64,000 nucleotides of DNA from assembly GCF_000253115.1 (NCBI RefSeq), contig NC_014145.1, positions 2,480,001 through 2,544,000 of the forward strand. The letters are read 5' to 3'. The notes under the pieces are model-generated. The model saw only the letters and a program-made list of their open reading frames with translations, made no database searches and had not been told where the DNA came from. The first letter of the stretch is position 1. Each line of letters begins with the position of its first letter. Source of the DNA: Thiomonas arsenitoxydans. GTDB lineage: Bacteria; Pseudomonadota; Gammaproteobacteria; Burkholderiales; Burkholderiaceae_C. The position numbers and the translations under genes are program-made. Shown piece after piece: positions 18,320 to 29,967 of the stretch.

Positions 18320-18337
18320 GCAGTTCGGTGCACCGTG

Positions 18338-18859
18338 ATGAACAGCGATTCGCAAAACATCGGCTCAACCAAGCCCTACCTCATCCGCGCCCTGTACGAA
18401 TGGTGCACGGATAACGGCCTGACTCCCTACCTGGCCGTACAGGTTGGAGCTGGTGCGCGGGTACCGATGGAGTTCGTGAAAAACGGTGAAATCGTGCTGA
18501 ACATCAGCTTTGACGCCACCAGCGCGCTGAACATCGGCAACGATGAAATTCGCTTCAAGGCGCGTTTCGGCGGTGTGGCCAGAGACATTCTTGTCCCCAT
18601 CGGTCAAGTCTCAGCCATCTATGCACGGGAAAACAGCCAAGGCATGGCCTTTCCGGTCGAAACCGCTGACGAATCAGCCGAGATCGGTGAAGCCAACAAC
18701 GCGCCCGCCGCAGAAGACCAGGACGAACCGGCTAAAGCCAGCAAGCCCACGCGACTGCAGCCGGTAAAATCCAAAGCATCGGAATCGGAAGAACCTTCCT
18801 CCGAACCGCCCCCCGGCGCCCCCCGCCCCGGCGGAGCGCATCTGACCCGCGTGAAGTAG
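18338..18859 (+). CDS. sspB: ClpXP protease specificity-enhancing factor SspB
   Basis: This 173-residue protein has the SspB substrate-binding domain in about the first 110 residues (STKPYLIRALYEWC, then EIRFKARFGGVARDILVPI). A flexible acidic and Pro-rich tail follows. SspB tethers ssrA-tagged proteins to ClpXP; the tail end normally carries the ClpX-binding motif, here probably the final PRPGGAHLTRVK residues. The ATG at 18338 directly follows an in-frame GTG. Confidence 0.92.
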   Translation: MNSDSQNIGSTKPYLIRALYEWCTDNGLTPYLAVQVGAGARVPMEFVKNGEIVLNISFDATSALNIGNDEIRFKARFGGVARDILVPIGQVSAIYARENSQGMAFPVETADESAEIGEANNAPAAEDQDEPAKASKPTRLQPVKSKASESEEPSSEPPPGAPRPGGAHLTRVK

Positions 18860-18921: not shown

Positions 18922-18997
18922 GCCGACTTAGCTCAGCTGGTAGAGCAACCGCCTTGTAAGCGGTAGGTCATCCGTTCGATTCGGATAGTCGGCACCA
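18922..18997 (+). tRNA. tRNA-Thr (anticodon TGT)
   Basis: This is a 76-base cloverleaf. The acceptor stem GCCGACT pairs with AGTCGGC, the D arm carries AGCTCAGCTGGTAGAGC, the anticodon stem-loop ACCGC-CTTGTAA-GCGGT presents TGT, and the T arm contains GTTCGATTC. The CCA end is encoded (discriminator A then CCA). The gene serves as the attachment site of the following island; the intact copy lies on the left side. Confidence 0.97.
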
Positions 18998-18998
18998 A
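18950..18998 (+). repeat. Left attachment site (inside tRNA-Thr)
   Basis: Bases 18950-18993 (from the anticodon stem to the end of the acceptor stem) are identical to 29166-29209. After one mismatch (A here, G at 29210) CCAA also matches. Crossover in the anticodon loop or T arm is typical of tyrosine integrases that use tRNA genes. Confidence 0.88.
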
Positions 18999-19030
18999 AA
19001 AACACAAGCAAAACAAGCACTTGCTGAACA

Positions 19031-19058
19031 AGCCCACTCTAATACTGTGGGCTTTTTT
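19031..19058 (+). terminator. Terminator downstream of tRNA-Thr, inside the island
   Basis: The stem AGCCCAC / GTGGGCT (19031-19037 and 19047-19053) has a 9-base loop and runs into TTTTT. It ends the tRNA-Thr transcript and was presumably brought by the element, because the native downstream terminator appears to lie at 29387. Confidence 0.8.
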
Positions 19059-19066
19059 GTGCGTTT

Positions 19067-19153
19067 TGGGGGAACGATTCCCCCACAATTCCCCCAGATT
19101 TCCCCCACACCGCCCCGGAACGTCGCTTTGCTGGGCACCCCAGGATTCCCCCC
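19067..19153. repeat. Left cluster of GATTCCCCC motifs (candidate integrase arm sites)
   Basis: ATTCCCCC-type motifs occur at 19077-19084, 19088-19095, 19098-19106 and 19144-19153, with an inverted copy GGGGGAA at 19068-19074. The same motif recurs twice at the right end of the island (29084-29103). Repeats of one short motif on both sides of the att core are what arm-type integrase sites look like; binding is inferred. Confidence 0.5.
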
Positions 19154-19164
19154 GCAGGGGATGA

Positions 19165-19997
19165 TCAGCGCCCCAACCCTTGCTCGCGCTTGCGCTGCCT
19201 CTCGATCAAAGCCATGAAACCGCCAAGGCTGGCGACGGCTCCCTCACCTCGCCGAGTAATCACACGATCCACCACCTCTGCAATCAGCGTGCGGCCGTTG
19301 GCTCCTTGGTGCGTGGCGCGGTCGTGTGCGGCGATGAACGCCTTGACCGGCGCGGCACTGCGGTCGCCGTCCAGCCATTGGTCGATTGCTTGATCCATCG
19401 CCTGTTTTTCCTGCCGGTGTGGAGGGTCCACGGGCGCCTGCTTTGTAGGCAACGCAGGCCACGCCTGCTCCGGTGCGGCTTTCGCCTGTGCAGTCGTCGG
19501 CTTGCCCACAGATTCTGTGGAGAGACCGCGCATGCTCTGCACTTCCGTCTTAGCGGCGCGGGCAAGGATGGCGGCCACGCGCTGCTCTCTCGCTCGGGCT
19601 TCCGCCTCGATCTGCTGCTGCGTCGTGCCTCGCAGCACATCCATGACGTGCGGGCGGGGCCGTGCCTGAACGTCCGGCGACACCACCCGGCTCACGGCAG
19701 GCACAGGTTGCCGGGGCGGTTGCCTGCGCCGCAGCTCATCCTGCACGATGGCCTGCAAGTCGGCGTTCACGACTTCGATGCCCAGCCGCACCGCCTGCCG
19801 CGCCGCCCGCTCCCTGAACTCGGCGCTGCCGGTAATGTCCACCTTGCCGCCGTACTTCTGCGAGGCCATACGCAAGGCGGCTTCCAGACTGTGATCGCTC
19901 TTGTCGTGCATCACAATGCGCGGGCCGGTGTCGGTGAACTTGTCCCGCCCCTGCGCATCACGGTACAGCACGAGTTGCCGCCTGCGGTCGATCTGCG
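19165..19997 (-). pseudogene. C-terminal remnant of a relaxase (LPD7-like domain)
   Basis: About 277 residues remain. The first part (RRRQLVLYRDAQGRDKF, then the TDTGPRIVMHD and LRMASQKYGGKVDITGS segments) resembles the LPD7-type domain found at the C-terminus of MobA/TraI-like relaxases of integrative and plasmid elements. A Gln/Arg/Ala-rich tail follows. The N-terminal nicking domain is missing because IS21 copy 1 abuts at 19998. The only start codon, ATGGAAATC, is supplied by the IS terminus, so a short fusion product could still be made. The family assignment is from memory and moderate. Confidence 0.55.
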
Positions 19998-20105
19998 TGT
20001 TGATTTCCATCCAGAACTGACCCAGTAACCCCCAGGATTTCCATCTAAATCTGACCCACGTACTAACCCTAACCTGCTGCTTTGTTTAGCAGCAGGAGAC
20101 CAGGA

Positions 20106-21632
20106 GTGATAGACGTGGCAACACTGAGTGTTATCAGACGCTGGGCCCTGCGCGAGCAGATGTCCATCCGCGAGATCTCCCGCCGCACCGGCCTTTCTCG
20201 CAACACCATCCGCAAGTACCTGCGCGCAGGCGAGTCCGAACCGCACTACGCCAAGCGGGTTAGCCCCAGCAAGCTCGATCCTTTCGCTGGCAAACTCGCT
20301 GGCTGGCTCAAGGCCGAGGCTGGCCGATCACGCAAGCAGCGGCGCACCGTCAAGCAGATGCACGCGGATCTACAGACCCTGGGCTACCCGGGCTCCTACA
20401 ACCGCGTCGCGGCCTTCGTCCGGCTTTGGCACGAGGAGCGCCTGGTGGCCCAGCAGACTACGGGCCGTGGCACCTTCGTGCCCCTGACCTTCGGCCCAGG
20501 TGAGGCCTTTCAGTTTGACTGGAGTGAGGACTGGGCGGTTATTGCCGGAGTGCGCACCAAGCTGCAGGTGGCGCACTTCAAGCTCAGCCACAGCCGGGCG
20601 TTCTACCTGCGCGCCTATCTGCTGCAGACCCACGAGATGCTGTTTGACGCGCACAACCACGCCTTTGCGGTGTTCGGTGGCGTGCCGCGCCGGGGTATCT
20701 ATGACAACATGCGCACCGCTGTGGATCGGGTTCGCAGGGGTAAGGAACGTGATGTCAACGCACGCTTTGCGGCCATGGCCAGCCACTTCTTGTTCGAGGC
20801 CGAGTTCTGCAACCCCGCCTCCGGCTGGGAGAAGGGCCAGGTGGAGAAGAATGTGTGTGATGCGCGCCACCGGCTGTGGCAAGTCGTGCCGGCCTTCCCG
20901 GCCCTCGACGATCTCAACGTCTGGCTGGAACAACGCTGCCAGGCGCTATGGCGCGAGATTGCGCATGGCAAGCTGCCGGGTACCGTAGCTCACGTCTGGG
21001 CCCAGGAGCGGGCCGCCTTGATGCCGGTGCCACGGCCCTTCGATGGCTTTGTGGAACACACCAAGCGGGTCTCGCCCACCTGCCTGATCCACTTCGAGCG
21101 CAACCGCTACAGCGTGCCAGCGCCGTAGGCCAATCGGCCTGTGAGCCTGCGGGTCTACGCGGATCGCCTGGTTGTCGCGGCCGAGGGCCAGATCGTCTGT
21201 GAGCATCAGCGCCTGATCGAGCGCAACCACCATGGCGCTGGCCAGACCGTCTACGACTGGCGCCACTACCTGGCGGTGCTGCAGCGCAAGCCCGGGGCCC
21301 TGCGCAACGGTGCTCCGTTCCTGGAGCTGCCTGGAGCCTTCAAGCGACTGCAGGCTGCACTCGTGAAACAGCCGGGTGGAGATAGGGAGATGGTGGAGGT
21401 TATGGCGCTGGTGCTGCACCACGACGAGCAGGCTGTGCTGGCGGCGGTGGAACTGGCCTTGGAGGCCGGAGCCGCCAGCAAGACCCACATCCTGAATGTC
21501 TTGCACCGCTTGCTCGATGGCAAGCCGGCCCCGGCGCCTGTCACCTCTCCCCAGGCACTCAAGCTGTCTGTGGAACCCCAGGCCAACGTGCTTCGCTATG
21601 ACCAACTGAGGGAGGTCCGCTATGCGTCATGA
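20106..21632 (+). pseudogene. istA: istA transposase of IS21 copy 1, interrupted by an amber codon
   Basis: The frame encodes a helix-turn-helix N-terminus (SIREISRRTGLSRNTIRKYL), a DDE integrase core (FDWSEDW, GGVPRRGIYDNM, GWEKGQVEKNV with its Glu) and a C-terminal region. A TAG at 21126-21128 interrupts it just after SVPAP; the same frame then continues ANRPVSLRVYADRLV to 21632. An IstA of 508 residues would result if the TAG were a sense codon, and TAC (Tyr) is expected there by family pattern. The product is probably inactive unless suppressed. The start is GTG 20106 after AGGAG. Confidence 0.85.
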
Positions 21633-22425
21633 CCCTGCCATCGCTTCCATCGTGATCATGCTGCGCGAGCTCAAGATGCACGGCATGGCCCAGGCGGTCA
21701 CTGAACTGGCCGAGCAAGGTGCTCCCGCTTTCGAGGCAGCCCAGCCGATCCTGTCGCAGTTACTCAAAGCGGAGACCGCCGAGCGAGAAGTGCGCTCGGT
21801 GGCCTACCAGTTGAAGGGGGCAAGATTCCCGGCGTATCGGGACCTGGCAGGCTTTGACTTCTCGCACAGCGAAGTGAACGAAGCCCTGGTGCGCCAGTTG
21901 CATCGGTGCGCGTTCCTGGAGGATGCCAACAACGTGGTCCTCGTGGGCGGGCCCGGCACTGGCAAGACCCACATTGCCACAGCCCTCGGTGTGCAGGCCA
22001 TTGAGCACCATCACCGCAGGGTTCGGTTCTTGTCCACGGTGGAGCTGGTCAATGCATTGGAGCAGGAGAAGGCCAACGGCAAGTCCGGACAGTTGGCCCA
22101 CCGGCTGGCCTATGCCGATCTGGTGATTCTCGATGAGCTGGGTTACCTGCCGTTCAGCGCTTCAGGCGGTGCCTTGCTGTTTCACCTGCTGTCCAAGCTG
22201 TACGAGCGCACCAGTGTCGTGATCACCACCAACCTGAGCTTCAGCGAATGGGCCGGCGTGTTCGGGGATGCCAAAATGACCACGGCACTGCTAGACCGGC
22301 TCACGCATCACTGCCATATTCTGGAAACCGGTAACGACAGCTTCCGGTTCAAAAACAGCTCTGCACAGCAACCCCCACAGACGACCAAGAAGGAGAAGAT
22401 ACCCAAGAACTTATCCACAACGTGA
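21622..22425 (+). CDS. istB: istB ATP-binding helper protein of IS21 copy 1
   Basis: This 267-residue AAA+ ATPase has Walker [10 protein letters not shown] near residue 112, Walker [13 protein letters not shown] and the TTNLSFSEW sensor region. It loads and regulates the IstA transposase on target DNA. Its ATG overlaps the end of the istA frame by 11 bases, so translation is normally coupled. The gene is intact although its partner istA carries an amber codon. Confidence 0.93.
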
Positions 22426-22498
22426 GCTTCAAGTTCACAAACAAGGGTGGGTCAGATCGAGATGAAAATAGTGGGTCAGGTTTGCATGGAAATCAACA

Positions 22499-22827
22499 TG
22501 CAGGCCGATGAAAGCCGGTCAGGGGAACCGGCACAGTGCGCCGGCGGTATGGCGGCCAAGGTAGCCCTTCAGTCCCCAGTTGAATCCGAGATGCCTCACC
22601 TGACTGCGGTCGTATTCGGCTGCGTGATCGATGGCTTGCGCTTCATGCCTGCGACTAGCCAGCGCGACGACGCACCGATCCCCAAAGTCGGAAGGATCCT
22701 TCGCTCGCTGTTCCGGATTCCGAGACGCGACGTGCAGGCGACGGCGCTCTCGTCGACTCGGAGGTGAGTATCCTCAGGTAGATCCCCGAATGCCCGGCGC
22801 TGTCGCCTCTAACGTTTCGAAAAGTGA
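22499..22827. other. Island DNA without a recognisable gene
   Basis: The IS21 copy 1 terminus supplies an outward ATG at 22486 that opens a frame of about 90 residues ending at 22767. Its sequence (after MEINMQADESR) matches no family I know, and I regard it as chance. A TGA at 22825-22827 closes the frame in front of the TOPRIM fragment. No RNA gene or strong hairpin is seen. Confidence 0.5.
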
Positions 22828-23517
22828 TCTAAGGAAGGTCTGCACAACCCGACTTATGCTCTTGGCCAACTGGCACTGTCTGAAGAGCGTAGTCCCGACC
22901 TCGCACTATTCGTGGAGGACGAGCAGGCTCAACTCATTCTCCAATCCCTTCTACGGCAACTGCTCGACTCAGACTTCCAGGGGTTAGCAAAGCCAGCCGT
23001 CGCGGTGGTTCCCGTTGGCGCCATCACGTCCGTGATCGCTTTCCTCCCTCGTGCCTCATCGCTGCTGCCGGACAATGTCCGCAAACACGCACTTCTTGAC
23101 GAAGATGCGTATGGTGAGTTCGTGCAGCCGTTGCAAAACGCTGGCAATCACATTGAACTTGCCAAAATCCAGAGAGTGCAGGCCCAGATTGGCTTTCTGC
23201 CATGGACACCCGAAGTCGGGATGTGTCAGCAACTTGCCAGCGATCAAGATAGCGAGCGGCGTCTACGGGAATACTTTGGCGACACCCGCATCAGTTTTAA
23301 TGCAACCGACTTCTCAAACCTTCCGACGCAAGCTGGGCCTGCTCAACGCCGGGAGGCAAAGTCGTTGATAGCCATACTGACCCAGCACATTTCCGAAGTG
23401 GTTCAGCGGACCCCCGAACGTGTCAAGCAGGATTTGGCTGACTACTTCGCGACGGCGTGTCTGTCGGGTCCGCAAGCAGGCAGCATCCGCGCCCTCCTGC
23501 TTCCCCTGTTGCGTTGA
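22828..23517 (+). pseudogene. C-terminal TOPRIM region of an OLD-like ATP-dependent nuclease (remnant)
   Basis: The open frame after the TGA at 22825 encodes about 229 residues and begins without a start codon (next possible start is a GTG at 22912). LALFVEDEQAQLILQSLL fits the glutamate-bearing first strand of a TOPRIM domain, and HALLDEDAYGEF fits its DxD motif. OLD-family proteins have this domain after an AAA+ ATPase, which is absent here, probably removed by the rearrangement at IS21 copy 1. Intact relatives act in phage defence. The assignment rests on motif pattern only. Confidence 0.42.
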
Positions 23518-23700
23518 CGCACCGGCAGAACCCATTCCGGCTGGGGTTGCAATAGTCCTGAGCTGTGACTGATTATCTGCCGGACGGATGAAGCAGTGCG
23601 GTCCTCGGGGGTAGTCCAGCAATGAACCTTCGTCACTGCAGTGAGGATGTCGTACCTTTTGCCGGCACTAAGCCGCGCAGCTTTGCTCAGGATCGTTGCT

Positions 23701-23850
23701 ATTGGCCGCTTCCGGCCAATCGCGATCGGTTACCACGAACGTTGGCCAACGTCGGTTACAGGCGATGGCCAACGTTGGCGACCACAACCAGACTGTCCGC
23801 CACCCGTCTGAACCGGTCTCTCGGGCGAGGAAACTGAGAGACCGGTTCGG
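23701..23850. repeat. Cluster of four palindromes/hairpins
   Basis: Perfect ATTGGCCG / CGGCCAAT hairpin at 23701-23720; perfect 14-bp palindrome ACGTTGGCCAACGT at about 23738-23751; 12-bp palindrome GCCAACGTTGGC at about 23768-23779; and a 13-bp inverted repeat GAACCGGTCTCTC with 13-base spacer at 23810-23848. Three share a TTGGCCAA-like core. The surrounding 23518-24045 has no convincing gene. This could be a protein-binding array or the remains of a replication or transfer origin. Confidence 0.6.
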
Positions 23851-24045
23851 CCGACGAGCTGTCATCAGTCGGTCGAGTTGTACGACCGATCGAATCCGAA
23901 CCAGCCGATGGAGCTTCAGCAAGCCCAGCGAATATTTCGAGTCGAGAGCACCAGCTCGCAGATCCTGGAGCATGCCATGCTGCCATCGGCTCCTTGAGTT
24001 CCTGCCAGCAGTGTTTGTACTTTGATTGGTGTCGTGCGTATTTTG

Positions 24046-24363
24046 TCAAGCAGCGACGGCCAATTCGCCAAAAGTTGCCTTGGCGCACAAATCGGGAATG
24101 TACAGTCCTTCATCCAGATCAGGCCAGTACAAATCATGCCCCGCGCCTTCGACCAGGACATTCGCGCGTTGTGTCGGATCAGCTTTCTCGATGGATGCAG
24201 GCAAGAGTGCGAAAGGGATGGCGATCTCCGCCCCATTCTCCAGATCGAGCACAAGGCGCTGCTTGCCGCCATCGACATGCACAGCCACGGCACGAGGCTG
24301 GATCAAGTCAAGCGCATTCCCGCGCTGCAGCGCGGATTGGATGGATTGCTCAAAAGTTGCCAT
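24046..24363 (-). CDS. DUF2442-like protein (module B)
   Basis: This 105-residue protein contains DGGKQRLVLDLENGAEIAIP and ends YWPDLDEGLYIPDLCA followed by a short tail. The pattern of a short beta-rich domain and the W-x-x-L-D-E motif matches DUF2442. The start at 24363 (MATFEQSI) has GGAGAG upstream and overlaps the DUF4160 stop by 14 bases. DUF2442 and DUF4160 genes often occur as pairs and have been suggested to be toxin-antitoxin-like, but I cannot prove this here. Confidence 0.7.
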   Translation of the reverse strand: MATFEQSIQSALQRGNALDLIQPRAVAVHVDGGKQRLVLDLENGAEIAIPFALLPASIEKADPTQRANVLVEGAGHDLYWPDLDEGLYIPDLCAKATFGELAVAA

Positions 24364-24598
24364 GTGTTTCTCTCCAGGCATTGCACAAGCGGGTCAACTC
24401 GTTCTCGATTTCACGAACCAATCGCCGCAGGATCGCGGCATCCATGCCCCGAGCATGCTCGGGCACGGCAGGGCCGTCAGGGCAGTTCAGCAGGATTTTC
24501 GCTCGCCCCGCGCCTGATACCACATGGACATGTGATGGACGGTGATCCTGCGTGTAGATCATGACGCGCCATGCCCCGATGCGCAATACGGTTCCCAT
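24350..24598 (-). CDS. DUF4160-like protein (module B)
   Basis: This 82-residue protein has the DUF4160 hallmark RPSHVHVVSGAGRAKI, with histidines in an SHVHV motif, and a helical C-terminus ILRRLVREIENELTRLCNAW. It overlaps the start of the downstream DUF2442 gene, so the two are translationally coupled. It lies 6 bases downstream of the integrase remnant. Confidence 0.75.
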   Translation of the reverse strand: MGTVLRIGAWRVMIYTQDHRPSHVHVVSGAGRAKILLNCPDGPAVPEHARGMDAAILRRLVREIENELTRLCNAWRETHGNF

Positions 24599-24604
24599 AG
24601 CGAA

Positions 24605-24783
24605 TTATCCCAGCTTCTTTGCCAGCTTCTCCGCCTCGACGTGCGTGTACCGCTTGAGCATGGACAGACTCTTATGGCCGGTCATGCTGGCCACTTCCAT
24701 GACGCCCAGACCCTTCTCAAATAACCGGGAAGTGGCCTCATGGCGCAGGTCATGAAAGTGCAGATCGTCAAGGAAGGGATCGG
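24605..24783 (-). pseudogene. C-terminal remnant of a second tyrosine integrase
   Basis: The last 60 or so residues are almost identical in protein to the end of the intact island integrase: [19 protein letters not shown], then SMLKRYTH with Val in place of Ile after it, and a Lys-Leu-Gly terminus. Homology begins at about 24783, at the DPFLDDL segment. Upstream, the frame changes into unrelated sequence. This is a fragment of a related integrase, not an active gene. Confidence 0.85.
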
Positions 24784-24897
24784 ATCGCAGTTGCCCCCAC
24801 AGCGCCACAGCGCGAGAGTCGGCTTCTCCAACGCAGGCAAATCAACGCACACGTCCAGCAAGCGCTCCAGTTCGACCTGGATGGCCGCAACGTCCAT
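24784..24897 (-). pseudogene. Truncated start of an unknown ORF fused to the integrase remnant
   Basis: An ATG at 24897 overlaps the stop of the DUF2442 gene of module A (TGATG) and opens MDVAAIQVELERLL, then [12 protein letters not shown]. Homology to this frame is unknown, and the sequence runs into the integrase remnant in another frame within 35 residues. It looks like the first part of a third gene of module A that was cut by the recombination joining the two modules. Confidence 0.45.
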
Positions 24898-25151
24898 CAC
24901 GCTGCAGCGGCATGATGATGGGTGAGATCCCCCACACCGGCAAGCAGCCCCTCGATGGAGATGTCTTCATCGAGTTCTTCCCAATGCAAGCCGCGTGTGC
25001 TGATGGTGTAGGCGACGCGTTGCGCGGGTGTGGCATGCAACAGGCGCGGGAACCAGGCCAGCGGTACGCCCAGCACGCGGCCATCGGAGAGACCAACCTG
25101 CATGCTGTCTTCGTCGAAAGCAATGGACTGCGCCCTAACCAAAGTGTTCAT
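24897..25151 (-). CDS. DUF2442 protein (module A)
   Basis: This 84-residue protein has the clear DUF2442 pattern: MQVGLSDGRVLGVPLAWFPR, RVAYTISTRGLHWEELDEDI and SIEGLLAG. It differs strongly from the module B copy, so this is not a recent duplication of that gene. The start at 25151 overlaps the end of the DUF4160 gene by 17 bases. DUF2442 proteins often partner with DUF4160; a DNA-binding antitoxin role is a suggestion from this pairing. Confidence 0.85.
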   Translation of the reverse strand: MNTLVRAQSIAFDEDSMQVGLSDGRVLGVPLAWFPRLLHATPAQRVAYTISTRGLHWEELDEDISIEGLLAGVGDLTHHHAAAA

Positions 25152-25374
25152 TCCAGGCCCTTTCGATGTCTTCAACGTGGCTCTCGATCACTTCGACAAG
25201 TCCACGCAGGGTTTTGGCATCAAAGCCGTCGTTATAGGCCAGGCGCACCGGGTGAATCCAGAACTTGGCATCGATGCAGTCCTTGACGGCGTGAATGTGC
25301 ACCGGCTCACGCGGGTTGCCCTCGTTCGAGTAGAACAGAAAGCGAAATCCTTGGTGGCGAAAGACGACGGGCAT
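25135..25374 (-). CDS. DUF4160 protein (module A)
   Basis: This 79-residue protein contains FYSNEGNPREPVHIHAV, the DUF4160 pattern with a His-x-His pair, and ends TLRGLVEVIESHVEDIERAW. It starts 10 bases after the integrase stop and overlaps the downstream DUF2442 gene, so the order int-DUF4160-DUF2442 is repeated from module B. In several toxin-antitoxin collections such pairs are listed as candidates; the toxic activity, if any, is not known to me. Confidence 0.85.
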   Translation of the reverse strand: MPVVFRHQGFRFLFYSNEGNPREPVHIHAVKDCIDAKFWIHPVRLAYNDGFDAKTLRGLVEVIESHVEDIERAWNEHFG

Positions 25375-25383
25375 GTCACGATG

Positions 25384-26430
25384 CTATCCCAACTTCTGCG
25401 CCAGCTTTTCCGCCTCGATGTGCGTGTATCGCTTGAGCATGGACAGGCTTTTGTGGCCGGTCATGCTCGCCACTTCCATGACGCCAAGGCCTTTCTCGAA
25501 CAGGCGGCTTGTCGCCTCATGGCGCAGATCATGGAAGCGCAGATCGGCCAGGAATGCGGGATCGGGCTTTACCCCTTGCGCGGTGCAGTCGGCTTCGTAG
25601 AGCTTGCGCGCGCTGGCCTTGCAGCGCGTCCAGGTCTTTTCGAATGAGTCCGATGCAGCCCAACCAAACACCCGGCCATCAATGCGAAGCGGCAGGCTTT
25701 GCAGCGCCGCCACCGCTGCACTGGACAGCGCCACGGTGCGGCTCTCGCCGTTCTTGGTGTCCACCAGATGCGCCGTGCGCCGGGCGAGATCGACCCGCGA
25801 CCATTCCAGGCCGAGCAGTTCGCCCAGGCGCATGCTGGACTCCACCGCCAGCGTTATGACCTGTGGCAGCCCGCCTATGCGGGCCCGAGCAGCCCGAGCA
25901 GCACGCAACAGGTAATCTAGCTCACCGGCAGTCAATCGCCGGTCACGCCCTCTTGGCTTGGCTGGCTTGCGAATCCCCCGCACCGGGTTGCCAACGGGCA
26001 GTGTAATGCTCAGTTCCTTCTCGGCGAAAGAGAACAGTCCGGACAGCGCGTTGAGATGGTGAATGACAGACTGCGCAGACAGGCCTTCGGCCAGCAGTTC
26101 ATCACGCCAGGCCGCTACATCGACCGCGCGAATGGCGGACAGGAACAGCGGCCCGAACCGCGACGCCGCCGCCTGCAAGTAGGTCTTGCCGCTATGCGCG
26201 CGCTTGCCCGGCAGCACAGTTACCGCGTATCGCTCGGCCACCTGCGCGAGCGTGGTCTTGCCTGCGTCATCCCGCAGCACGGCGGCATTGCCGCGTTGCA
26301 ATTCGCGCTCGACTTCGCGCGCCCAAACCTGGGCATCGGCCAGAAGGTCAAACGTCCGACTGATCGACGGCATACCCTTACGCCGAATTTGTGCCCGCCA
26401 CCCGTTTTTGCGCTGCTCAAAGAAAGCCAT
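25384..26430 (-). CDS. Tyrosine site-specific integrase of the tRNA-Thr island
   Basis: This 348-residue protein has the N-terminal arm-binding-like region MAFFEQRKNGWRAQIRRKG, a core-binding domain and the catalytic domain with Arg in ESSMRLGELLGL, Lys in [25 protein letters not shown] and the nucleophile in RYTHIEAEKL. It should recombine tRNA-Thr att sites. The start at 26430 is kept because it equals the natural N-terminus; upstream in-frame codons belong to IS21 copy 2. That insertion took away the native Shine-Dalgarno sequence. Confidence 0.93.
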   Translation of the reverse strand: MAFFEQRKNGWRAQIRRKGMPSISRTFDLLADAQVWAREVERELQRGNAAVLRDDAGKTTLAQVAERYAVTVLPGKRAHSGKTYLQAAASRFGPLFLSAIRAVDVAAWRDELLAEGLSAQSVIHHLNALSGLFSFAEKELSITLPVGNPVRGIRKPAKPRGRDRRLTAGELDYLLRAARAARARIGGLPQVITLAVESSMRLGELLGLEWSRVDLARRTAHLVDTKNGESRTVALSSAAVAALQSLPLRIDGRVFGWAASDSFEKTWTRCKASARKLYEADCTAQGVKPDPAFLADLRFHDLRHEATSRLFEKGLGVMEVASMTGHKSLSMLKRYTHIEAEKLAQKLG

Positions 26431-26630
26431 GATTGTTCGTGCCGATGGAATTTTGACCCACCGTGCCGATTCAATTTTGACCCGGGGTCTAAGGCCGACT
26501 GCGTCGCAGTCGGGTGTGGATAAGTCTACGGTTTTTGCGTGGGGTTGGCTCCTGGTGGGTGGGTTTGGATCCTTGGGGCAAGCTGCGTCGGGCGTAGCCC
26601 AGAGCGGCTTGCCCCAAGGGCTTGTGGGGG

Positions 26631-27449
26631 TCAAAGCGGTGTCTCGGGCTCAGCGGGCTGGGGTGCCTGTGCTGTGCCCGAACGCCTTTGCTCCCGCGCC
26701 TTGATGCGGGTCTTGGCGGTTTCCGTGCTGTGACGGAAGCGGTAGCTCTCGTTCCCGGTTTCCAGAATGTGGCAGTGGTGTGTGAGCCGGTCGAGCAAGG
26801 CGGTGGTCATCTTCGCATCGATGAACACGCTGGACCACTCGCCGAAGGCCAGATTGGTCGTGATCAGCACGCTGGTGTGCTCGTAGAGCTTGGACAGCAG
26901 ATGGAACAACAAAGCCCCGCCCGCCTGACTGAAGGGCAGATACCCCAGCTCATCGAGAATGACCAAGTCCATACGCAAGAGGCTTGCCGCAATCCGCCCG
27001 GCTTTGCCCTGCGCCTTCTCCTGCTCCAGCGCGTTGACCAGATCGACGGTGGAGTAAAACCGCACCCGCTTGCCGTGCTGCGTGATGCCCGCCACGCCGA
27101 TGGCCGTGCCCAGATGGCTCTTTCCCGTGCCGGGCCCGCCCACCAGCACGACGTTGTGCGCGGCTTCGGTAAAGGCCATGCTGGCGAGTTGCCCCACCAG
27201 CGTGCGATCAACCCTTGAGGCATCAAAGTCAAACCCCGCTAGATCGCGGTGCACCGGGAAGCGGGCCGAGAGGATTTGATGGCGTACCGAGCGCACGGCG
27301 CGATCTTCCTGCTCGGCCTGCAGCAAATGCTCGACGAGCCACTGCGCGGCATCCAGCCTGGCGTTCGTCCCCAGACCTTGCAAATCGGCCCAGGCGCCGG
27401 CCATGCCGTGCAGCCGCAACGCCTTGAGTTCCGCAATGACCTCACGCAT
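26631..27449 (-). CDS. istB: istB ATP-binding protein of IS21 copy 2
   Basis: This 272-residue protein has Walker [10 protein letters not shown], Walker [13 protein letters not shown] and [15 protein letters not shown] sensor sequence ([10 protein letters not shown]). Its start overlaps the istA end by 8 bases. A basic C-terminal tail with [15 protein letters not shown] extends the protein. It cooperates with IstA in transposition. Confidence 0.94.
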
Positions 27450-28962
27450 GATCTCGCTCCTCGTCAGTCACCCGCAGGCGGTCATAGCGGGCCGTGTCGG
27501 CGCGGGGTGGATCGGCCATCGTCAAGGCCGTGGTCACTTGGGCGGGCTGGGGGCCGGTCTGCAAGCGCCCCATCACGTTGACCACATGCTCCACGCTGAT
27601 GCGCCCGGACGGGGCCGTGGCTTCCAGCACCAGCGCAGCGGCCACCAGGACCGCCTCCAGCCCGGATGCGGGCACCAGCGCCAGCACCTGGGCCATGAGC
27701 CGGTCGCCCCCGTCTTGCCGCAGCAGCGCCTGGCGCAGTTGCTGCAAGGGCTGGGGCAGATCGGCAAACGGCGCGCCGTTGCGCAACGCCCCGGGTTTGC
27801 GTTGAATCAGCGGCACATAGTGCTGCCAGTCGTAGGTGGTCTGTCCCCGGTTGGCCAGCCGCGCATGGCGGGCCACACACACGCCGTCATGCACCACGAC
27901 CACCTCGGTGGGATACACCCGGGTGCTCACCCGCCGCCCGGCGAGTTCACAGGGCACGGAGTAACGATTGCCAGCCATGGCCACCAGACAGGTGCTGCTG
28001 ACCTTGACCGTGTTGTCCACATAGCCGTCGAACGCTGTGGGCATGGGCATGAGGTGCGGCTGCTCGTGCTCGAGCATCTCGGCCACGGTGAACTGGCTGA
28101 ACTCGGGATGGAAGATCTCCTGCCACAAGCCACGGCAGCGCATGGCCAGCCAGGCATTGAGTTCGGCAAAGGAGCGCCAGGGCGTCGACAGGGCCTCAAT
28201 CCACACACGTCGCCTGCTGTCCTGGACGTTCTTCTCCACCACCCCCTTCTCCCAACCGGAAGCGACGTTGCAGAAGTCGGGGTCGAACAGGTAGTGGCTG
28301 CACATCGCCGCAAAGCGCGCGTTGACGTCGCGCTTCTTGCGCGGGTGCACTTTGTCGACGGCTGTCTTCATGTTGTCATAGATGCCGCGATGCGGCACTC
28401 CGCCGAAGGCGGCAAACGCCTGGGTATGGGCGTCAAACAGCATCTCGTGACCTTGGCTGGGATAGGCCCCCAGCCAGAAGGCACGGCTGGCGCACAGCTT
28501 GACGTGGGCAACCTGCACGCGGTACGGCACGCCGCCCACCACCATGCTCTCTTCACTCCAGTCGAACTGGAAGGCTTCGCCCAGCGCAAACGTCAAGGGC
28601 ACGAAGGCGTGCACAGCGCTCGTGCCATCGGCCTGTCGCCAAGCGCGCAGTAAATCGGTGACGCGGCTGTAGGCGCCGTCATAGCCTTGTCGCTTCAACT
28701 CGGCATGCAATGCCCTGGCCGTGCGCCGCTGCGCTTTAGGACGCTGCGCATCAATGGCCACGGCCTGCCGGAGCCACTCCACATAGGGCGCGAGCTTGCG
28801 CGAGGGTTGTGTTCGCCGCGCCGCGTACCGCGGTACGACATCGCCCGGCTGGCGTAGCCAGGTACGCACCGTGTTGCGCGACAGCCCCGTACTGCGGGCA
28901 ATCTCTCGAACGGATTTGTTCTGGCGGAAATGCATCCGCCGGATCTTGCCAATCATGTCCAT
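27442..28962 (-). CDS. istA: istA transposase of IS21 copy 2
   Basis: This 506-residue protein is intact and of normal IstA length. A helix-turn-helix N-terminus ([20 protein letters not shown]) is followed by the DDE core: [21 protein letters not shown], and [11 protein letters not shown] (Glu). It catalyses cut-and-paste joining with IstB. ATG 28962 follows AGGAG by 8 bases; an in-frame GTG at 28971 overlaps that site. Confidence 0.95.
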
Positions 28963-29083
28963 GGTGATCACTCCTGCTCCCCGTGCCTAAAAAAGCAGCA
29001 GGGTAGGTGGAACACCCGGGTCAATTTTGCGTCGGCATAACCTTCAAAAGTGGGTCAATTTTCGTTCGGCACGAACAAGCCAT

Positions 29084-29103
29084 GATTCCCCCTAGATTCC
29101 CCC
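29084..29103. repeat. Right cluster of GATTCCCCC motifs (candidate integrase arm sites)
   Basis: GATTCCCCC occurs at 29084-29092 and 29095-29103, only 11 bases apart, and reads as the same unit as at 19077-19153. Just beyond the IS21 copy 2 end, the minus-strand GGGGGAATC also supplies the native ribosome-binding site of the integrase, so this site may be both an arm site and part of the int leader. Confidence 0.5.
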
Positions 29104-29165
29104 AAATACAGAGTCGAATCTGTAGCTGATCAAGCATTCATGCGGGTTACAGAGGTTTTTATTTT

Positions 29166-29214
29166 CGCCTTGTAAGCGGTAGGTCATCCGTTCGATTCGG
29201 ATAGTCGGCGCCAA
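29166..29214 (+). repeat. Right attachment site (partial tRNA-Thr copy)
   Basis: 44 bases match the intact tRNA-Thr from its anticodon stem to the acceptor-stem end, then one mismatch (G) and CCAA. The 5' half of the tRNA is absent, so this copy is not a functional gene. It marks the distal end of the island. Confidence 0.9.
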
Positions 29215-29386
29215 TCTCAATCTCCGTTTGGGATTCCATGCCACGCTGCCTAATGCAGGGCAGTGCGCATGCACGCCTAATTCCAGCATGAACAAGTCGG
29301 ATAAAAAATTATCTGGACAACTCGTCTCAATTTGTATCAAATGGTGACTGAGCCTTTACTGGCTCTTTCAGGGAGTGTGCAATTCA

Positions 29387-29417
29387 CCCAGGTCGACATC
29401 GGCCTGGGTTTTTTTTC
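29387..29417 (+). terminator. Terminator right of the island
   Basis: CCCAGG / CCTGGG (29387-29392, 29403-29408) encloses a 10-base loop and is followed by eight T residues. Before integration it would have stood about 175 bases behind tRNA-Thr and was probably its native terminator. Confidence 0.8.
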
Positions 29418-29547
29418 GCCTCCGTTTTTCGTCTCTCTCTTTTTCTCTCATCTCTTCCTCACCTGAACCGCCCATGCCTGCCGCAGGGGGCAAATGCTGT
29501 TAGCGACTCTGAGAGACAATAGATTTATCTCGGTTCGGTATCTGCTC

Positions 29548-29967
29548 ATGCCCTCTCCCACCCCTCGCACCGATTGGCCTCAGGCCATCGTTCTGCACAA
29601 GTTATCTCGCGTGCTCGAACTCACCTATGCCGACGGAACCCAATACCTGCTGCCGTTTGAGTTGATGCGGGTCTTTTCGCCGTCTGCCGAGGTGCGCGGG
29701 CACGGGCCTGGGCAGGAAACCTTGCAGACTGGCAAGCGTCTCGTCGAGATCGATAGTGTGATGCAGGTCGGGAACTACGCCATCCAGCCGCACTTCTCGG
29801 ACGGCCATGACAGCGGCATCTACAGTTGGGACTATTTGCATTTCCTGGGGCAAAACCAGGAGTCGCTCTGGGCCGACTATCTGAACCGCCTACAGGCTGC
29901 CGGTGCCGACCGCGACGCGCCCATGCCCGAGGCTACGTCCAACGCACACCACTGCTCGTCTCACTGA
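29548..29967 (+). CDS. DUF971-family protein
   Basis: This 139-residue protein contains [30 protein letters not shown] sequence (beginning [18 protein letters not shown]), [19 protein letters not shown] and SWDYLHFLG, the signature of the small DUF971 domain also found at the N-terminus of gamma-butyrobetaine hydroxylase. The domain may bind metal or an iron-sulfur cluster. It is often found directly before ubiE, as here, with 29 bases between. ATG 29548 was chosen. Confidence 0.85.

Follow-up and report, generated by a model that had tools for sequence, protein, structure and literature searches.

A genomic island in a tRNA-Thr gene

The window analyzed here, a stretch of 64,000 nucleotides from Thiomonas arsenitoxydans 3As (contig NC_014145.1, positions 2,480,001 to 2,544,000), carries a genomic island of about 10.2 kb that lies in a gene for a threonine transfer RNA, tRNA-Thr(TGT). 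The island encodes a tyrosine integrase of 348 amino acids (25384..26430, minus strand; open reading frame (ORF) and Pfam), whose frame is open and which has arginine 12 and glutamine 14 (R12/Q14) in its putative arm-binding strand. The functional tRNA gene was located with ARAGORN and by the repeat at 18922..18997 on the plus strand, and its 3' half appears to come from the element. Sequence comparison placed the attachment (att) repeats of 44 bp at 18950..18993 (attL) and 29166..29209 (attR), both on the plus strand and 10,216 bp apart. They are identical at 44 of 44 bases and at 48 of 49 when lengthened to 49 bases, and a 69-base query found only these two copies in the 3.79 Mb genome. The attR copy is the host-side end. 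It lacks the 5' half of the tRNA and is preceded by TTTTTATTTT, which also stands before the corresponding repeat copy in another Thiomonas genome (G005), and the next base has decayed to G where functional tRNA ends have A. The flanks hold core genes, with sspA and sspB (18335..18859, plus strand; Pfam SspB, 2.4e-37) on the left and a DUF971-type (GBBH-like_N) gene (29494..29967, plus strand; ORF, with a Pfam match of 8.9e-28 on 29524-29964) followed by ubiE on the right. The G+C content of the island is not distinct from its surroundings within 10-40 kb of the window.

To place the locus in its genus, 13 Thiomonas genomes were compared, 3As among them, of which 12 have a match to the right-flank gene; draft assemblies limit this comparison, and G001, G003, and G009 were left out of the scoring of empty and occupied sites. 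In G007, sspB, the tRNA, and the DUF971 gene lie on a single contig with about 0.52 kb from the tRNA to the DUF971 match and no island between them. In G004, the whole tRNA-Thr lies about 0.24 kb before the DUF971 match on the same contig, and sspB is on another contig. The G008 contig starts five bases before the repeat, inside the tRNA, with the gene match 0.46 kb further on; here tRNA bases directly precede the repeat, which supports an empty site, and the spacer resembles a leftover left end, so that the site may be a scar. The G012 contig starts within the repeat and then continues as in 3As (88% identity over 432 bp, with ACCA at the repeat end versus GCCA in 3As); its SspB is 97% identical to that of 3As, and because the bases before the repeat are missing, this genome cannot tell empty from occupied.

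Other genomes are occupied. In G005 the same tRNA carries an island of about 23 kb that includes a second copy of the repeat and encodes a related integrase (68% identical), a TrwC relaxase, a coupling protein of the TrwB type, and a ParA-like protein; this fuller relative looks like a mobilizable element. An element left end stands behind the tRNA in G002, G006, G010, and G011. Together, these comparisons indicate that the DNA between the repeats was inserted and that tRNA-Thr(TGT) is a recurrent target. An apparent left end of another element was also seen right after attR in G005 (L077 4277-4430), apparently the remnant of a tandem array.

A previous sequence-only reading had described the locus as an island with a 44-base tRNA-Thr repeat at both ends, accessory content between core flanks, and a right att copy without the tRNA 5' half. 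The repeat proved exact, and Pfam and ORF annotation agrees with the division into accessory and core genes. That the left copy is the functional tRNA restored by the element is likewise supported, and the element also appears to supply a terminator-like hairpin. The comparison with relatives that this reading had proposed bears it out, contiguously in G007 and from the whole tRNA onward in G004, within the limits of the draft assemblies. A chance repeat was rejected given its length of 49 bp and its two copies only in the genome. An origin by insertion sequence (IS) activity or an assembly artefact was rejected as well, given the empty sites in G007 and G004 and the different island at the same site in G005.

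Paired arm sites inside the island ends

Pairs of ATTCCCCC, 11 bp apart, are located inside both island ends and constitute putative arm sites of the integrase. On the left (19077..19106, plus strand), ATTCCCCC starts at 19077 and 19088 and is followed by TTTCCCCC at 19099. On the right (29085..29103, plus strand), two copies of ATTCCCCC start 87 and 76 bp before the middle of the anticodon. The pattern ATTCCC(A/C)C-N3-ATTCCC(A/C)C matches the window twice (19077 and 29085) and none of 100 shuffles. Genome-wide there are nine matches, two of them overlapping, and none in a reversed control. All nine lie at the ends of four islands, in tRNA-Thr(TGT), tRNA-Arg(TCT), tRNA-Pro(GGG), and tRNA-Asp(GTC), which have exact end repeats of 44, 49, 53, and 52 bases, respectively, and, by eye, a hairpin with a T-run behind each tRNA.

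These sites lie at set distances. In all six right ends measured, the arms begin 86-87 and 75-76 bases ahead of the anticodon middle. Left arms start 121-133 and 132-144 bases after it in the seven motif-bearing left ends (3As Thr, 3As Arg, G002, G005, G006, G010, and G011) and fall into two spacing classes about one helical turn apart. The motif is absent from the left ends of G003 and G008, from the second left end in G005, and from a 74-base stub in G009, and the left end of G006 is mixed, with two copies of ATTCCCAC and one of ATTCCCCC. In the five elements for which both ends are seen (the four 3As islands and G005), the arm type is the same at both ends (5/5), and it also agrees in G011, where the ends lie on different contigs. 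In this arrangement, putative arm-type sites flank the core on both sides.

The integrase family and its predicted fold

The residues R201, H300, R303, H326, and Y335 are invariant in 57 family sequences and K226 is kept in 90% or more; we take these six to be the catalytic residues. An AlphaFold model of the window integrase, built with 57 sequences, reached a mean pLDDT (predicted local distance difference test) of 91.8. Its N-terminal domain consists of strands 2-7, 10-15, and 23-27 and a helix at 30-45, with residues 12 and 14 on strand 10-15. Alternate residues of a strand have side chains that point to the same side. The Pfam family Arm-DNA-bind_4 is weakly matched in 21 of 37 family members (best E 9.2e-5) and not in the window integrase.

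The closest relatives of the window integrase use several tRNA genes. Identity is 79% to L078 at Thr(CGT), 76% to both L095 at Pro(GGG) and L093 at Arg(TCT), 74% to L085 at Pro(GGG), and 68% to L077, which comes from G005 and uses the same Thr(TGT). In 3As itself, the three sister integrases differ in core segment and target, and the Arg one is broken. Eight plasmid records carry an integrase of this kind, all below 60% identity, with 39-41% among the matches listed. As a separate observation, the tRNA-Arg(TCT) of the next island is preceded at about 0.2 kb by a Pro(TGG)-type integrase remnant (L097, C2:1355046-1355903) whose arms are of the GTCCC type.

Arm sequence covaries with integrase residues 12 and 14

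To compare arms with proteins, we assembled a training set of 173 relatives, taken from hmmsearch at 150 bits or more and starting near the N-terminus, with duplicates and L001-L003 dropped; 98 of them have a clear arm pair with 11-bp spacing. The arm finder is blind to the protein; it requires C-A in whichever copy is closer to the tRNA and gives preference to T or G ahead of the core. Its rules miss other arm classes, such as a W-K-A class seen by eye only among dropped holdout rows. The holdout comprised 43 loci with 42 integrases, 21 of which have arms and three of which are training duplicates (L311, L314, and L316). In the merged 115-row set the G005 integrase occurs twice (L049 and the truncated L040), and L241, L243, and L244 are near-identical; since some rows are near-identical, pair counts are not independent.

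In 68 representatives that share less than 70% identity, arm position 7 is most strongly associated with column 12 of all columns scored (z 9.2, the runner-up having 5.2), and arm position 5 with column 14 (z 8.8, runner-up 7.4). Summed over positions 4-7, association is 22.9 for column 14, 22.3 for column 12, 21.6 for column 5, and 17.1 for column 138, and with all 98 rows columns 12, 141, and 14 lead. In the merged set, all 19 cases of E12 have G and all 4 of H12 have C; R12 has C in 38 of 40, and L/M12 has A in 7 of 8. Contacts of R with G, E with C, and Q with A are common in DNA reading.

These associations were carried to the holdout as rules fixed beforehand. The position-7 rule was right in nine of ten predictions as scripted, one of the right ones being the duplicate L316; the miss, L337, has its motif anchored on Y and not W, and anchoring on W would turn it into a correct prediction. 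For the remaining 11 holdout rows, with Q12 by eye, the rule gave no prediction. The full 5-mer, read by hand in those rows for which one had been set down in advance, was right in six of eight new holdout rows.

A further comparison drew its predictions from relatives below 50% identity only, with TCCCC readings scored as GTCCC owing to a register shift. Of the 102 cases having a prediction, residues 12 and 14 give the right arm 5-mer in 59, the most similar remaining relative, judged on the rest of the protein, in 10, and the commonest arm in 16. Among the 1068 N-terminal column pairs scored, (12,14) comes first (59/115), and the next, with 47, also uses column 14. Distant pairs with the same residues at 12 and 14 share their arm 5-mer in 183 of 315 cases, compared with 224 of 5536 for the others, while close pairs share it in 8 of 117 cases when these residues differ and in 101 of 106 when they are the same.

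Independent pairs were then drawn on a tree built without the N-terminal domain. R/H/K12 with C gave 10 pairs, 6.8 in the same direction and 0.1 opposite (median p 0.016, range 0.008-0.22). E12 with G gave eight pairs (5.6 same, 0 opposite, median p 0.03, range 0.03-0.125), K14 with GTCCC, GGCCC, or TCCCC gave seven (6.3 same, 0 opposite, median p 0.03, range 0.016-0.125), and L/M12 with A gave four (p 0.25). As a whole, the link between these residues and the arm sequence is one of covariation, and as such we regard it as good.

A core-binding segment follows the tRNA target

A different part of the integrase tracks the tRNA gene. From 25 aligned labelled integrases, the 17 closest with an assigned tRNA were taken, and L050, a near copy of L185, was dropped, leaving 16; targets were assigned by hand from the position of the anticodon. 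Extra identity was scored between 15 same-target and 105 different-target pairs in 20-residue windows. Windows within residues 57-96 stand out, with the best at 65-84, and this maximum was reached in 0.15% of 2000 label shuffles (P 0.0015). In the model of the core-binding domain, the target-tracking segment corresponds to helices 61-71 and 78-92.

An integrase fragment at Thr(TGT), L059, separates this segment from what precedes it. It shares 57 of 60 residues with L048, an Arg integrase, at 1-60 and 9 of 31 at 61-92, where it shares 20 of 31 with the window integrase. This pattern identifies L059 as a mosaic. A profile aligns the 57-96 segment with lambda Int from residue 69 on, and by counting, N99 of lambda Int falls at about window residue 83-84; N99 is a reported specificity residue (PMC10863862). 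For the core reader, too, the link is covariation, and its strength is moderate.

Island content and decay

The remainder of the island points to decay. Next to the left end lies the tail of a relaxase (19165..20010, minus strand; Pfam LPD7, 9.4e-20), the end of a TraI/MobP relaxase that NCBIfam TraI_MobP_relax matches at positions 451-502 of 502 with 32.5 bits against a cut-off of 250. It is followed by a first IS21-family element (19998..22498, plus strand; ends set by eye from inverted repeats), whose istA (20082-21605) is split by an in-frame stop at 21126-21128 and whose istB (21622-22425) is open; no target duplication of four or more bases was found for it. A second IS21-family element (26434..29077, minus strand) lies three bases upstream of the integrase start codon and has a target duplication of about 9 bp (26425-26433 and 29078-29086), its ends being ambiguous by a base or two. 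This copy separates the integrase from its former upstream region, and the integrase is therefore presumably expressed poorly or not at all.

The C-terminal fragment of a second, related integrase (24605..24808, minus strand; Pfam Phage_integrase, 2.6e-13) is 85% identical in DNA to the open integrase gene over 170 bp. Each of the two integrase 3' ends is directly followed by a DUF4160-DUF2442 pair assigned by Pfam, the first at 24046..24598 and the second, downstream of the open integrase, at 24897..25374, both on the minus strand. The two pairs are not alike by tblastn at 1e-4, and we assume that they are possibly toxin-antitoxin-like passengers. As a standard companion of the integrase family they were rejected after tblastn (1e-4) of related loci, where one DUF4160 match near the integrase in L169 was the sole exception. 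An ORF of 201 amino acids (22912..23517, plus strand) has no Pfam, PADLOC, or NCBIfam match, and none of the six island proteins scanned for defence genes matched PADLOC. In summary, the island appears to be a decayed integrative element, and it is probably immobile now.

Behind the functional tRNA, an element-borne hairpin with a T-run (19032..19058, plus strand; by eye) resembles a terminator. Judged by eye, the hairpins at this place (19032-19058, L080, L091, L097, L100, and L362) vary in stem sequence and keep their pairing, as though every element came with a tRNA terminator of its own.

Proposed history and alternative explanations

We propose that a small integrative element entered tRNA-Thr(TGT) through its own tyrosine integrase, with the crossover at some point within the 44-bp repeat, which starts in the anticodon stem, and that it would have rebuilt the tRNA 3' half and supplied the terminator-like hairpin. 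Later decay would have reduced the conjugation part to the relaxase tail, with one IS21 splitting the integrase from its upstream region and another at the left, and the second integrase fragment may mark an older or tandem relative. In the integrase, two separable readers may be at work. Strand 2 of the N-terminal beta-sheet would read the arm bases through residues 12 and 14 (for example R12-Q14 with CCCCC, E12-Q14 with GTGGC, and L/M12-Q14 with CCCAC), and helices A-B of the core-binding domain (about 57-96) would choose the tRNA core. Relatives would then have switched tRNA gene by changing the second reader and keeping the first. That the locus is a decayed tRNA-Thr island with such a two-reader integrase is, in our judgement, highly probable. 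The broader proposal is likely, with less assurance: across the family, residues 12 and 14 would specify the 5-bp arm core as a natural code, making arm sites predictable from the protein, and the tRNA gene would be set separately by helices A-B, which would have been repeatedly replaced, in at least one case as a mosaic (L059).

Several points weigh against the two-reader explanation of the island. Taken position by position, column 12 leads at arm position 7 alone and column 14 at position 5 alone. The strongest association with position 4 is that of column 235 (11.4), and with position 6 that of column 5 (10.0), which also comes close behind columns 14 and 12 in the summed score. From distant relatives the pair (12,14) was right in just 59 of 115 rows, the full 5-mer was missed for L339 (RQ) and L353 (RR), and arm bases are mixed with Q12 (A 11, C 19, G 11, T 1) and K12 (one C, one T). 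The sign tests rest on 4-10 supported pairs, with p ranges reaching 0.125-0.22 and 0.25 for L/M12. The set itself was thinned, as 75 of 173 training and 21 of 42 holdout integrases were dropped for want of a clear arm pair by the rules of the finder or of enough upstream DNA; contigs that break off where the integrase starts are among the training cases. For the core reader, the test had just 16 integrases and 15 same-target pairs to draw on, and the lesser peaks at 105-136 and 173-200 mean that other residues contribute. A fold search of the PDB with the N-terminal model alone gave no significant match, and the ORFs scanned yielded no recognisable excisionase, no search of small ORFs for such a gene having been made.

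Could the link between residues and arms reflect shared ancestry only, in what would otherwise be an ordinary tRNA island? Arms and integrases are inherited together, columns 5, 138, 141, 200, and 235 associate too, and supported independent pairs are few. However, on distant relatives (12,14) beats the other 1067 N-terminal pairs and far exceeds the most similar relative (59 versus 10 of 102), close relatives that differ at 12 or 14 seldom share arms, and the tree-based pairs point the same way as the code, which together make this explanation unlikely. Very unlikely, in our view, is that the paired motif is bound by another protein, such as an AlpA-like factor or a regulator of int. The motif does adjoin the int start codon, where a repressor could act, and for the similar doubled motif of helper-embedded phage-inducible chromosomal islands (PICIs) the binder is left open in the available part of the report (PMC10111431). 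Against such a protein stand the fixed distances at which the motif occurs in both ends, with two spacing classes on the left that differ by about a helical turn, and its covariation, which is best with two integrase residues.

The remaining alternatives concern the island rather than the integrase family. With an open integrase ORF and both att sites and both arm pairs present, the island might still move, either because an outward promoter of the IS21 drives the integrase or because a related integrase acts in trans. We give this little credence, as the IS21 lies between the integrase start codon and the upstream region, the three sister integrases have other core segments and targets (the Arg one being broken besides), and the scanned ORFs include no recognised excisionase. 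A further possibility is that two elements once lay in tandem and that deletion then collapsed one of them to the integrase fragment and the first DUF4160-DUF2442 pair. The 85% identity of the fragment over 170 bp, the separate and unlike pair behind each integrase 3' end, and the apparent second left end after attR in G005 would fit such a collapse, whereas the genome-wide query found no third att copy; we see it as quite possible, though we lean slightly the other way.

Relation to known elements

Genomic islands ThGEI-A to S have been described in Thiomonas sp. 3As (PMC2829063), and in strain CB2, ICE19/RGP19, an integrative and conjugative element (ICE) near a Thr tRNA, has 49-bp repeats and was shown by PCR to excise (PMC4589449). 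As far as the available parts of these reports go, the window island resembles them as an IS-rich island with direct repeats and an integrase at a tRNA gene 3' end (PMC2829063, PMC4589449). The published CB2 ICE differs in lying near fbp, compared with sspB here (PMC4589449).

Among integrases, the window protein resembles the lambda type. The domain order is the same in the model, lambda Int is among the structural matches and was aligned by sequence, and the target-tracking segment aligns with the lambda stretch that holds N99 (PMC10863862). In contrast, identity is only about 20%, the arm sites here are tandem pairs spaced by 11 bp, and the arm domain, taken alone, has no significant PDB match. 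The arm domain of Tn916 integrase is reported to have a three-stranded sheet fold, as in the window model (PMC8138268). Helper-embedded PICIs are reported to carry a doubled co-oriented motif at about 81 bp ahead of the attP centre and 132 bp beyond it, a geometry nearly that of the window arm sites (PMC10111431); the difference is that here integrases 69-79% identical to that of the window use other tRNA genes.

Target switching among tRNA genes is itself already published. Related integrases are reported to have likewise switched tRNA genes in pT26-2-type archaeal integrases (PMC8371274) and in actinobacterial integrative and conjugative elements (AICEs; PMC3218068), whereas no target-tracking segment or arm-site code is described in the available parts of these reports (PMC8371274, PMC3218068). 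A literature search of limited extent found no report of an arm-site code. Taken by itself, the island is simply another of the tRNA type. It gains value from the two ends and the integrase kept in four sister islands of one genome, and from more than 100 relatives with readable arm sites, which make the old question of how integrases change their DNA targets testable in two residues for the arms and one segment for the core. If the code is true, it would predict island ends from the protein sequence: arm motifs would be predictable from the integrase and could serve to delimit islands, whose boundaries are hard to establish by other means.

A conserved block beside the island

To the right of attR, a non-coding block with a hairpin and a terminator (29279-29421) lies upstream of the DUF971 gene. 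The terminator at 29387 that the earlier reading had placed here is present, and we add that it forms the end of this conserved block. The block is 86-92% identical in the loci of nine other Thiomonas genomes and 74% identical in G004. The Rfam family Betaproteobacteria_toxic_sRNA matches it with 27.5 bits, below the cut-off of 50, and the block is possibly a gene for a small RNA.

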